NCBI GenBank assembly: GCA_902594855.1
Contig: CACJNS010000001.1
Coordinates: 689,335-753,334 of the forward strand
Length of the DNA: 64,000 bases
Reading direction: 5' to 3'
Origin: an uncultured SAR86 cluster bacterium
GTDB lineage: Bacteria > Pseudomonadota > Gammaproteobacteria > Magnimaribacterales > AG-339-G14
Position numbers and translations under genes: made by a program. The notes beneath the pieces are model-generated. The model saw nothing but the letters and a program-made list of their open reading frames with translations. It did no database searches and was not told the DNA's origin. Numbering within the stretch: position 1 is the stretch's first letter; every line of letters starts with the position of its first letter. Shown one piece after another: positions 25,160 to 28,981 of the stretch.

Positions 25160-26089
25160 ATGGGTAATAAGCTCAAATTTGGATTATTGGGAGCACTAGG
25201 GTACATAGCTCCTCGCCATATTCAAGCAATCAATAATATTGGTGCAGATCTAAAATGTGTCAGTGATTTGGATTTTAACTCAGCCATAAAAAAAGAATTC
25301 CTCTCTAAGAACATAGAAACCCTTGATAGTCTTGAGGAAATGATCAAATTCCATCAGAAAGATAACTTAGACTATATTTCTATCTGCACTCCAAATCACT
25401 TACACACTGATCAAATAGTTACTTGCTTGGAAAATGATATCAATGTGATTTGTGAAAAGCCCCTCGCTTTATCTGTTTCAGACTTAGATAGGATTAGAAA
25501 ATCTGAATCCGTTTCAGCTGCTAAGGTTTTTACAATTATGCAATTAAGATTTCATGAATCAATAATTCAATTGAAACAAAATATAACCTCACAAAAGTCA
25601 GGAGAAAAACATGAGGTCATCCTGATATATGCTACTACAAGAGGTTCAGATTTTTTTTCTTCCTGGAGAGGAAGTGAAAATAAATCAGGAGGGATTCTTT
25701 TCGAATTTGGTATTCACTATCTGGATATTTTGATAGATATTTTTGGCCAAGTTTCAAATTTCAATGTCAACAAGTTATCTCTCAATCAAGCTAACGTTCT
25801 TATCGAACATGAAAACGCGAAAGTTTTAATAATGATCAATGTTTTATCCAAAGAAAAACTTAAAGAAATGGGACAAGAGGAAGTTCTGTATCGATCCTTC
25901 ACCATAAATGGAGATGAATTTGAATTTACAGGAGGATTCCAAGATTTGCATACCAAGAGTTATGAATCAATTCTTGAAGGAAAGGGCTTTACAGTTGAGG
26001 ATGCGTCCAAATCAATCAAACAAATATCTAAAATAATGGATGAGTTTGAAAAAGGATCGACTTATAAACCAATTTTAAATAATCTTTAG
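25160..26089 (+). CDS. Gfo/Idh/MocA oxidoreductase (WlbA/WbpB-like)
   Basis: A 309-residue NAD-dependent dehydrogenase. The Rossmann segment contains GYIAPRH (residues 14-20), a signature of WlbA/WbpB enzymes that oxidise C3 of UDP-N-acetylglucosaminuronate. EKP at 99-101 carries the catalytic Lys, and FSSWRGSENKSGG with the His of FGIHYLD match the same group. Product would be a 3-keto sugar nucleotide for amino-sugar glycans of LPS or capsule. The partner aminotransferase and acetyltransferase are not in the window. Function is inferred from motif similarity. Confidence 0.78.
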   Translation: MGNKLKFGLLGALGYIAPRHIQAINNIGADLKCVSDLDFNSAIKKEFLSKNIETLDSLEEMIKFHQKDNLDYISICTPNHLHTDQIVTCLENDINVICEKPLALSVSDLDRIRKSESVSAAKVFTIMQLRFHESIIQLKQNITSQKSGEKHEVILIYATTRGSDFFSSWRGSENKSGGILFEFGIHYLDILIDIFGQVSNFNVNKLSLNQANVLIEHENAKVLIMINVLSKEKLKEMGQEEVLYRSFTINGDEFEFTGGFQDLHTKSYESILEGKGFTVEDASKSIKQISKIMDEFEKGSTYKPILNNL

Positions 26090-26091
26090 AA

Positions 26092-26595
26092 ATGCAAAAA
26101 ATTTCAACTCCAGACCTTAGTGATCTTAATCCCAACGTTCCATTCCTAGGTTTACAATTTAATTCGTATGGAGCTAGAGATTTTCTTTATGGCCCTATAA
26201 AAACAGTTCATGCTCCAAACGATAATTCTTTTGTTAAAAAAATATTAGCAACAGAAGGGCAGGGTGGAGTTCTTTTTGTCGATGGGGATAAAAGTTTTGA
26301 GGTGGCCCTCTTGGGAGACATGATTGCTGAAAATGCTTACAAAAATAATTGGAATGGAATAATTATCCTCGGCTGCGTCAGGGATGTAGATGTCTTGAAA
26401 ACAATCGATATGGGAATTTTTGCACTTGGCTCTGTTCCTAAAAAAAGTGAAAAAAAAGATAGAGGTTCCGTTGATGACCCTATTGAAATAGACGGATTGA
26501 TAATAAATTCAAATGATTGGGTCTATGGAGATTCAACGGGAGTCTTAGTCTCCAAAGTGGAGCTGGCGATAGGAGTCGAACCTACGACCGCCTGA
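26092..26595 (+). CDS. rraA: RraA family protein (RNase E regulator / HMG aldolase fold)
   Basis: A 167-residue protein of the RraA family. GQGGVLFVDGD, LLGDMIAENAYKNNW and GCVRDVDVL carry the conserved Gly-Asp and Arg-Asp residues. RraA trimers bind RNase E in E. coli, while relatives are 4-hydroxy-4-methyl-2-oxoglutarate aldolases. The normal end (DSTGVLVS) is followed by about a dozen residues, LAIGVEPTTA at the end, encoded by the antisense of tRNA-Thr; the stop codon lies inside that tRNA. Starts 2 nt after the dehydrogenase gene. Confidence 0.88.
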   Translation: MQKISTPDLSDLNPNVPFLGLQFNSYGARDFLYGPIKTVHAPNDNSFVKKILATEGQGGVLFVDGDKSFEVALLGDMIAENAYKNNWNGIIILGCVRDVDVLKTIDMGIFALGSVPKKSEKKDRGSVDDPIEIDGLIINSNDWVYGDSTGVLVSKVELAIGVEPTTA

Positions 26596-26633
26596 TTACA
26601 AATCAGGAGCTCTACCAACTGAGCTACGCCAGC
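26558..26633 (-). tRNA. tRNA-Thr (TGT)
   Basis: A 76-nt cloverleaf on the reverse strand. The acceptor GCTGGCG pairs with CGCCAGC, the anticodon loop TTTGTAA carries TGT, and CCA is encoded. It lies 19 nt downstream of birA on the same strand and probably shares its transcript. Its 3' 38 nt overlap the end of rraA. Confidence 0.95.
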
Positions 26634-26652
26634 AACGTCAAGAATTATAAAC

Positions 26653-27450
26653 TCATTTCTTTAATTTTAAAGATACTTCTCCGGAACTAAATTTCACTAT
26701 CCTTTGATCCTTTAAATTTTGAGCGATTAAAAGGCCTTTATTATCTATTCCTTTTCCAATGAATGTTTCACTAGGTTTATCTTTCAGGGTAAATTCCTTA
26801 CCTTTTAATAAATCCAAAGATGTAAATTTTTTCAGGAAGTAATCAAACTCCTCTTGCTCAAACTTATTTAAGGTTATGCATAGTTGATTAATCATTTCTG
26901 TAATGATTGAGTTTCTATCTACTGATTGTTTCTTTTCTAATTTTATTGAGGTCCACTCTTGATCTATAAGTTCTGAATATTCCATGTTGACATTGATTCC
27001 TATGCCAATAACCACTTTGGTCAATTCACCTACTTTTGCAGTTTCTACCAAAATTCCACAAATTTTTTTATTTCCAACAAGAAGATCATTAGGCCACTTG
27101 ATCAAAGACATCACATTTATTTTAGTAAGCACTTCAGATACCGATAAAGCAACTGCTATGCTGAGTCCAGATAAATCTTCTTTTTTCAAATATGAATTCA
27201 GGGAAAAATATATATTTTTAAATTTAGGACTAATCCATGATTTACCTCTTCGTCCTCTACCTTTAGTTTGCTCTTCTGCAACGCATATTTTTATATCTTT
27301 ATTTTTATTTTTTTCTTCTCTTAAAAGGTAGTCATTAGTAGAACTAATGGTATCGAATACTTCTAAAACAACTTTTGATCTAAATTCATTACTAAGTTTT
27401 GATAATATTTTTTCTTTATCTAAAGGATTTTTGTTGACAACTTCTATCAT
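26653..27450 (-). CDS. birA: biotin-[acetyl-CoA-carboxylase] ligase, no repressor domain
   Basis: A 265-residue ligase that attaches biotin to the carboxylase carrier protein. GRGRRG at residues 64-69 is the biotinyl-AMP loop; IKWPNDLLVGNKK holds the catalytic Lys, and KICGILVE the following strand. The N-terminal DNA-binding domain of E. coli BirA is missing, so it cannot act as the bio repressor. The ATG at 27450 is used; a longer in-frame reading through the antisense of tRNA-Tyr gives the typical tRNA-derived sequence GAGFEPAKP and is rejected. Confidence 0.9.
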   Translation of the reverse strand: MIEVVNKNPLDKEKILSKLSNEFRSKVVLEVFDTISSTNDYLLREEKNKNKDIKICVAEEQTKGRGRRGKSWISPKFKNIYFSLNSYLKKEDLSGLSIAVALSVSEVLTKINVMSLIKWPNDLLVGNKKICGILVETAKVGELTKVVIGIGINVNMEYSELIDQEWTSIKLEKKQSVDRNSIITEMINQLCITLNKFEQEEFDYFLKKFTSLDLLKGKEFTLKDKPSETFIGKGIDNKGLLIAQNLKDQRIVKFSSGEVSLKLKK

Positions 27451-27462
27451 GACTCCGAGAAT
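27434..27462 (+). promoter_or_regulatory. promoter of the tRNA-Tyr / tRNA-Thr / tuf transcript
   Basis: A perfect TTGACA (27434-27439), a 17-bp spacer and GAGAAT (27457-27462). The start is predicted about 8 nt before tRNA-Tyr. The -35 lies inside the birA coding region on the other strand. Confidence 0.55.
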
Positions 27463-27476
27463 ACCACGCTCTGACT

Positions 27477-27560
27477 GGAGGGGTTGGGGAGCGGTCAAAC
27501 CCAGCTGACTGTAAATCAGCCGCTTCGGCTTCGCAGGTTCGAATCCTGCCCCCTCCACCA
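27477..27560 (+). tRNA. tRNA-Tyr (GTA)
   Basis: An 84-nt class II tRNA. The acceptor GGAGGGG pairs with CCCCTCC, the anticodon loop CTGTAAA carries GTA, there is a long variable arm (CGCTTCGGCTTC), the T arm is GCAGG-TTCGAAT-CCTGC, and CCA is encoded. First gene of the tuf cluster. Confidence 0.96.
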
Positions 27561-27567
27561 GAAATTC

Positions 27568-27596
27568 TTGCCTTTATGACAAGAAAACAGTATAAA
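27568..27596 (+). promoter_or_regulatory. internal promoter for tRNA-Thr and tuf
   Basis: TTGCCT at 27568-27573, a 17-bp spacer and TATAAA at 27591-27596, in the 124-nt gap between tRNA-Tyr and tRNA-Thr. Predicted start near 27603. The rest of the gap holds no recognisable gene. Confidence 0.45.
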
Positions 27597-27684
27597 TGCC
27601 ACCGGAGCGAAAGGTCTAGGATATTTCATTGTATTTTTAACAAGAATTTATCCTTTTTTGATCCGGAATTTATGAACATTTATG

Positions 27685-27787: not shown

Positions 27788-28981
27788 ATGGCTAAAGAAA
27801 AATTTGAAAGAACCAAACCCCACGTAAATGTGGGTACTATAGGTCACGTGGACCACGGTAAAACTACCTTGACTGCTGCTTTAACAAAAGTTTGTGCAGA
27901 GACTCATGGTTCCGGTGAAGCTGTAGCTTTTGAAGGGATTGATAATGCTCCTGAAGAAAAAGAAAGAGGTATAACCATAGCAACATCACACGTTGAATAT
28001 GATTCTCCAGCAAGACACTACGCACACGTAGATTGTCCAGGACACGCTGACTATGTAAAAAACATGATTACTGGTGCAGCCCAAATGGATGGAGCTATAT
28101 TGGTTGTAAATGCCGCAGATGGACCTATGCCTCAAACTAGAGAACACATCTTATTAGCAAGACAGGTAGGTGTTGAGCACATCGTAGTCTTTTTAAACAA
28201 AGCTGATCAGGTAGATGATGCTGAGTTAATTGAGTTAGTAGAAGTAGAAATCAGAGACCTTTTAAATGAGTACGATTTCCCTGGGGATGATACTCCTATA
28301 ACCATTGGGTCTGCTTTAAAGGCTCTAGAAGGCGATGAAGGTGAACACGGAAAAGAAGCTATTCTTAAATTGGTTGAGTCATTGGACAGCCACATTCCTG
28401 AGCCAGTTAGAGATCTAGATAAGCCTTTCTTGATGCCTATTGAAGATATCTTTTCAATTCAAGGAAGAGGAACTGTTGTTACTGGAAGAATTGAAAGAGG
28501 TATGGTTTCTGTCAATGATGAAATGGAAATTGTTGGAATAAAAGACACAGAAAAAACTACTTGCACTGGTGTAGAGATGTTCAGAAAACTTCTTGATGAA
28601 GGTCGTGCTGGTGAAAATGTTGGTGTTCTTCTTAGAGGTACAAAAAGAGAAGAAGTTGAAAGAGGTCAGGTACTGTCTAAGCCTGGTTCAATAACTCCTC
28701 ATACTAAGTTTGAAGCTCAAGTCTATGTATTAAATAAAGAAGAAGGTGGCAGACATACTCCTTTCTTTAAAGGCTACAGACCGCAGTTTTATGTAAGGAC
28801 AACCGACGTGACTGGTGAAGTCATTCTTCCTGATGGAGTTGAGATGGTTATGCCAGGTGATGATGTGGCAATTAATGTTGAATTGATATCACCAATCGCT
28901 ATGGAAGAAGGAATGCGTTTTGCTATCAGAGAAGGTGGTAGAACTGTTGGTTCCGGAGTAGTATCCAAAATCGTTCAATAG
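27788..28981 (+). CDS. tuf: elongation factor Tu
   Basis: A 397-residue GTPase that delivers aminoacyl-tRNA to the ribosome. [10 protein letters not shown] is the P-loop, DCPGHADYV switch II and NKADQVDD the guanine-specificity motif; [10 protein letters not shown] is switch I. It is the only tuf in the window, because the usual second copy after fusA is absent. The TAG stop overlaps the first two bases of tRNA-Trp, so processing that tRNA from the same RNA removes the end of the tuf message. Confidence 0.98.

Follow-up and report, generated by a model that had tools for sequence, protein, structure and literature searches.

The conserved protein RraA ends, in one SAR86 genus, inside a tRNA gene: the last codons of rraA and its stop lie on the antisense strand of tRNA-Thr(TGT), and both the overlap and the resulting tail recur in each of the six genus genomes with an rraA gene. 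The arrangement is very probably a convergent overlap formed by a shift of the stop codon, in which the partner is a tRNA gene, and tolerated in a compact genome, here of 1.23 Mb. It provides a clean case of a structural RNA dictating the end of a conserved protein, and we regard it as a genuine and conserved, if modest, peculiarity of compact genomes. Judging from the reading frame, the tail is presumably translated.

Geometry and conservation of the overlap

Within the window (the whole 64,000-nucleotide stretch of DNA that was analysed), rraA occupies positions 26092-26595 on the plus strand and encodes 167 amino acids from ATG to TGA. The tRNA-Thr(TGT) gene, called by ARAGORN and Rfam RF00005, lies at 26558-26633 on the minus strand (RF00005 match 26561-26633, minus strand, 72.3 bits). 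It has a cloverleaf supported by the covariance score, a TGT anticodon and an encoded 3' CCA, and it is the sole Thr(TGT) among the examined tRNA loci of its genome. The two genes converge and share the 38 bases 26558-26595, as the initial annotation had stated; the open reading frame call and the ARAGORN and Rfam calls confirm this interval to the base. The antisense tRNA supplies two bases of the V156 codon, the 11 whole codons E157-A167 and the stop, so that the acceptor 3' strand, the T arm, the variable loop and a piece of the anticodon stem all lie beneath the end of rraA. The TGA stop itself (26593-26595, plus strand) is the antisense of the anticodon stem. Since 61 of 96 antisense frames entered from the 3' ends of tRNAs in this genome meet a stop before leaving the tRNA, at a median of 44 bases in, a stop within the tRNA is unsurprising once the genes abut.

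The protein in front of this tail is an ordinary RraA. PF03737 matches residues 8-153 (E 7.9e-37; 127.2 bits against a curated cut-off of 24.5) and covers profile positions 3-152 of 152, reaching the last one. Beyond the domain, Leu158, whose CTG codon (26563-26565, plus strand) is the antisense of the tRNA acceptor stem, is the last of 23 columns that are invariant in an alignment of 62 RraA homologues. The AlphaFold model has a mean pLDDT of 94.4 and is confident to about residue 160; pLDDT is about 95 at residues 151-160, averages 47 at residues 161-167 and falls below 50 at 163-167. The captured sequence may thus be read as a part that completes the fold, followed by a floppy and probably disordered extension, GVEPTTA (codons 26572-26592, plus strand), past the usual RraA end near residue 161. 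We infer that this extension is harmless. The tail under discussion carries the C-terminal peptide VELAIGVEPTTA.

Nine genomes of the genus were sampled; three of them, 60-85% complete, have neither rraA nor this tRNA-Thr. Across the six that carry rraA, variation affects 88 of the 465 columns in the body of the gene (19%), mostly at third codon positions (17/8/63 by position), while the 38 overlap bases, and indeed the last 39 columns, do not vary at all. With dN/dS values of 0.05-0.27 for the body across the genus, RraA is a protein under purifying selection. The initial annotation had proposed that the protein tail is dictated by the tRNA, and both this fixity and the identical antisense tail of un-overlapped tRNA-Thr genes in other genera bear it out: on the aligned sequences, the frozen tail is explained by tRNA constraint.

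Origin of the antisense-tRNA tail

RraA is 161 amino acids long in 24 loci of other SAR86 genera (our first set) and 159-166 amino acids long in other gammaproteobacteria, in each case with its own stop and no tRNA at its end. In the genus studied here, rraA extends further at its 3' end than the orthologous genes do, and the protein exceeds that of SAR86 relatives by about six residues. A comparison of rraA ends, suggested by the initial annotation, places shorter RraA solely where the tRNA is not adjacent; none is shorter inside the genus. The view that rraA passes through its normal end needs to be amended: its last codons and stop do come from the tRNA complement, but there is no read-through of an intact native end, and the native last codons and stop have been replaced. 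One further candidate for an independent tRNA-derived tail, the RraA of Gammaproteobacteria bacterium 53_120_T64 (L049, matched over query residues 6-166), was rejected; it ends in EEALTEST with no tRNA nearby.

In other genera, tRNA-Thr genes that do not overlap rraA encode VELAIGFEPTTA and then a stop when read in this antisense frame. The rraA tail is therefore captured tRNA sequence that predates the overlap. Three bases distinguish the tRNA-Thr of this genus from that of the rest of the family, all in the T arm. Two of them form a compensating swap of the T-stem 51-63 pair and are silent for RraA; the third, a single T-arm loop base, turns F162 into V in the tail. The captured V-E-L happens to coincide with native residues, since the RraA of genus g2 ends in SKVELEVN or SKVKL... 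Native codons of the GTA-GAA-TTG type closely resemble the GTG-GAG-CTG of the antisense tRNA, and the rraA-tRNA junction can for this reason be placed only approximately.

The sister genus g4 retains a different order: rraA, a gene for a membrane protein of about 122 amino acids, a SnoaL-like gene, tRNA-Thr and birA. The two small genes, about 760 bp, part rraA from the tRNA, which lies 760-860 bases further on, and the start of the membrane protein gene overlaps the rraA stop by four bases. With the g4 membrane protein gene as the query, no copy was found across the nine genus genomes (relatives were recognised by eye in g2 and g3). Most genus genomes have a SnoaL-like relative, 49-53% identical, at another location. 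The spacer may accordingly have been reshaped in two or more steps instead of being lost in a single deletion. On the other side, a Gfo/Idh/MocA-family oxidoreductase gene (25160-26089, plus strand; PF01408, PF02894) ends two bases upstream of the rraA start, and among the genera examined this gene stands between rnr and rraA solely in the genus studied here, so both flanks of rraA have been rearranged.

Upstream of tRNA-Thr lies a birA-like gene (26653-27558, minus strand; PF03099 at residues 68-189). Its longest open reading frame begins with a stretch (27450-27558, minus strand) that has a GTG start inside an antisense tRNA-Tyr and reads MEGAGFEPAKP..., a typical spurious N-terminal extension. 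Because these first codons are antisense tRNA-Tyr, the true start is probably the ATG at 27450. As a separate observation, at window positions 27560-27684, ahead of tuf, tRNA-Tyr and tRNA-Thr(GGT) stand without the tRNA-Gly that E. coli has between them.

These comparisons are consistent with the following course. In the genus ancestor, the spacer between rraA and tRNA-Thr, represented by the two small genes in g4, would have been lost or relocated, and rraA would have been joined to the 3' end of the opposite-strand tRNA gene. The native last codons and stop were replaced by antisense tRNA sequence that already existed, as the identical antisense reading in un-overlapped relatives shows. The first captured codons, V-E-L, complete the RraA fold with its conserved end and the invariant Leu158, and the join was presumably tolerated because they do so. 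The rest forms a short, probably disordered tail, stopped in the antisense of the anticodon stem, and from then on tRNA constraint holds the RraA tail fixed.

Other coding ends in tRNA genes and transcription across the overlap

In SAR86, it is common for a gene to end within a tRNA gene. In a survey of the tRNA loci of the genome studied here (G000; 32 tRNAs, all but one or two of those in the genome), coding ends fall in two tRNAs in antisense (rraA and hflX) and in three in sense. The three sense cases, in which the tRNA takes the last one or two bases of the stop codon, concern tuf, a PMSR/SelR methionine sulfoxide reductase gene and a phosphoribosyl-AMP cyclohydrolase gene. Several sense overlaps also occur among the 36 tRNAs of a sister-genus genome (G009). 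At tuf, the stop codon has two bases in common with the start of tRNA-Trp (window 28980-28981), and the same two-base overlap is present in G009. Candidate coding ends in Shewanella tRNAs were discarded, the sole two matches in 40 being open reading frames that ran through masked N.

The second antisense case is hflX (L128:1566-2873, minus strand), whose TAG stop and the two codons before it (V, G) are supplied by the antisense of tRNA-Arg(CCG) (L128:1501-1576, plus strand). The ending, ..NNLVG and stop within this tRNA, is found in seven of seven genus genomes. In genus g3 (L192-L202), hflX likewise ends in antisense tRNA-Arg(CCG), in a different frame that gives ..VGEPGRT and a stop. In L193, L195, L199 and L200 of that genus, the tRNA is mutated, recoded or unrecognisable and the hflX tail persists, tails of the form EVGEPGRT or EVGELGRT being kept in genomes with a decayed tRNA. 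The clearest case is L199, where the 24 hflX tail coding bases differ from those of L168 at five positions, whereas the remaining tRNA needs many gaps to align. The persistence of the tail is suggestive. Antisense tRNA strands might repeatedly supply proteins with new C-termini and stops in streamlined SAR86 genomes, as at rraA/tRNA-Thr and, in two genera and two frames, at hflX/tRNA-Arg, and such tails might survive the loss of the tRNA as ordinary protein sequence, g3 hflX being the example; we put the chances of this broader proposal at slightly below even. Together, rraA and hflX form a natural experiment on the fate of a tRNA-derived tail once the tRNA constraint has gone.

The persistence of the g3 tail also bears on whether selection favoured the rraA tail as a new functional C-terminus, such as a binding peptide, beyond tolerating it. 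Such a role would fit a tail that is identical in all six rraA-carrying genomes, but that invariance is fully accounted for by the tRNA. Moreover, the last RraA residues are predicted to be disordered, and of the three changes in the tRNA on the genus branch, one replaced F by V in the tail. Selection for the tail is thus an unlikely addition to a stop-codon shift that was simply tolerated.

The initial annotation had also raised convergent transcription and antisense pairing between the tRNA and the rraA mRNA. A TATAAT box resembling a -10 element (26644-26649, minus strand; consensus scan, 10 of 12 matches) and a -35-like TTTAAA (26666-26671, minus strand; consensus scan) lie upstream of tRNA-Thr, in a scan whose promoter-like sites showed no excess over shuffled sequence. 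The TATAAT box is kept in the six genus genomes and is oriented to read the tRNA towards rraA, and on the minus strand beyond the 3' end of the tRNA the scan found nothing resembling a terminator. Given this box and the lack of such a site, convergent transcripts meeting at the overlap are plausible. A hairpin-like GGAG...CTCC just ahead of the overlap (26539-26553) was set aside; it is absent as such from L006. From here one could picture a functional switch, in which rraA mRNA pairs over 38 perfectly complementary bases with tRNA-Thr or its precursor, or convergent transcripts interfere, tying RraA to tRNA levels. Any overlap yields such complementarity automatically, however, and the mature tRNA and the rraA sense strand each fold on themselves. 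The overlap is, in addition, limited to one genus, and a similar one at the unrelated hflX points to compaction rather than to a circuit specific to rraA. We consider a switch of this kind very improbable, and antisense regulation or functional tRNA-mRNA pairing is unsupported.

Comparison with known systems

RraA of E. coli and Vibrio regulates RNase E or DEAD-box helicases (PMC3814787, PMC5738090). The protein described here resembles E. coli RraA (PF03737; PDB 1q5x) in having the domain end to end and the conserved terminal Leu, and differs from other RraA proteins in that its normal last residues are replaced. No described bacterial protein with an antisense-tRNA C-terminus was found in the open-licence literature searched, and there is weak evidence that such a C-terminus on a conserved bacterial protein is new.

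Families of spurious open reading frames over tRNAs are collected in AntiFam (PMC9710616, PMC3534567), and GVEPTTA is indeed what translation of the antisense of a tRNA T arm typically yields. Unlike those isolated frames, however, it ends a real, conserved and selected RraA; a spurious frame of that type would have no support outside the tRNA, whereas 466 of the 504 rraA bases lie outside it and bear PF03737. Although frames antisense to tRNAs are well known as spurious annotations and convergent 3' extensions are sometimes erroneous (PMC2478687), there is next to no chance that the extension is an annotation or assembly artefact and the true RraA shorter: six separate assemblies agree on the overlap, which argues against sequencing or annotation error, and none has the earlier in-frame stop that the initial annotation had named as a refutation, the Pfam domain runs to residue 153 with L158 conserved beyond it, and rraA is under purifying selection. 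The case carries a warning for annotation, namely that a coding end within a tRNA is not always an error.

For pairs of protein genes, convergent overlaps that arise through loss or shift of a stop codon are well documented (PMC4161906, PMC2478687). Like those pairs, rraA and its neighbour lie tail to tail, and rraA, extended at its 3' end relative to its orthologues, has lost its own stop and uses one in its neighbour. In contrast to them, the neighbour is a tRNA gene, so that RNA structure, and not the codons of another protein, determines the added residues. The usual definition requires both partners to be protein genes, which does not apply here; two real genes, 3' lengthening and presence in more than one genome are all found. 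Because its partner is a tRNA, the pair is a variant rather than a plain member of this kind of overlap.

Overlaps between tRNA and protein genes occur in compact organelle genomes. In Blastocystis organelle genomes, overlap of genes through stop gain and loss has been described (PMC5203790). The rraA case shares with compact organelle genomes a compaction that drives coding ends into their neighbours. In contrast to the organelle overlaps, it is found in a free-living bacterium, is antisense and is conserved across a genus, and it illustrates how far compaction can reach into gene ends in streamlined ocean bacteria.
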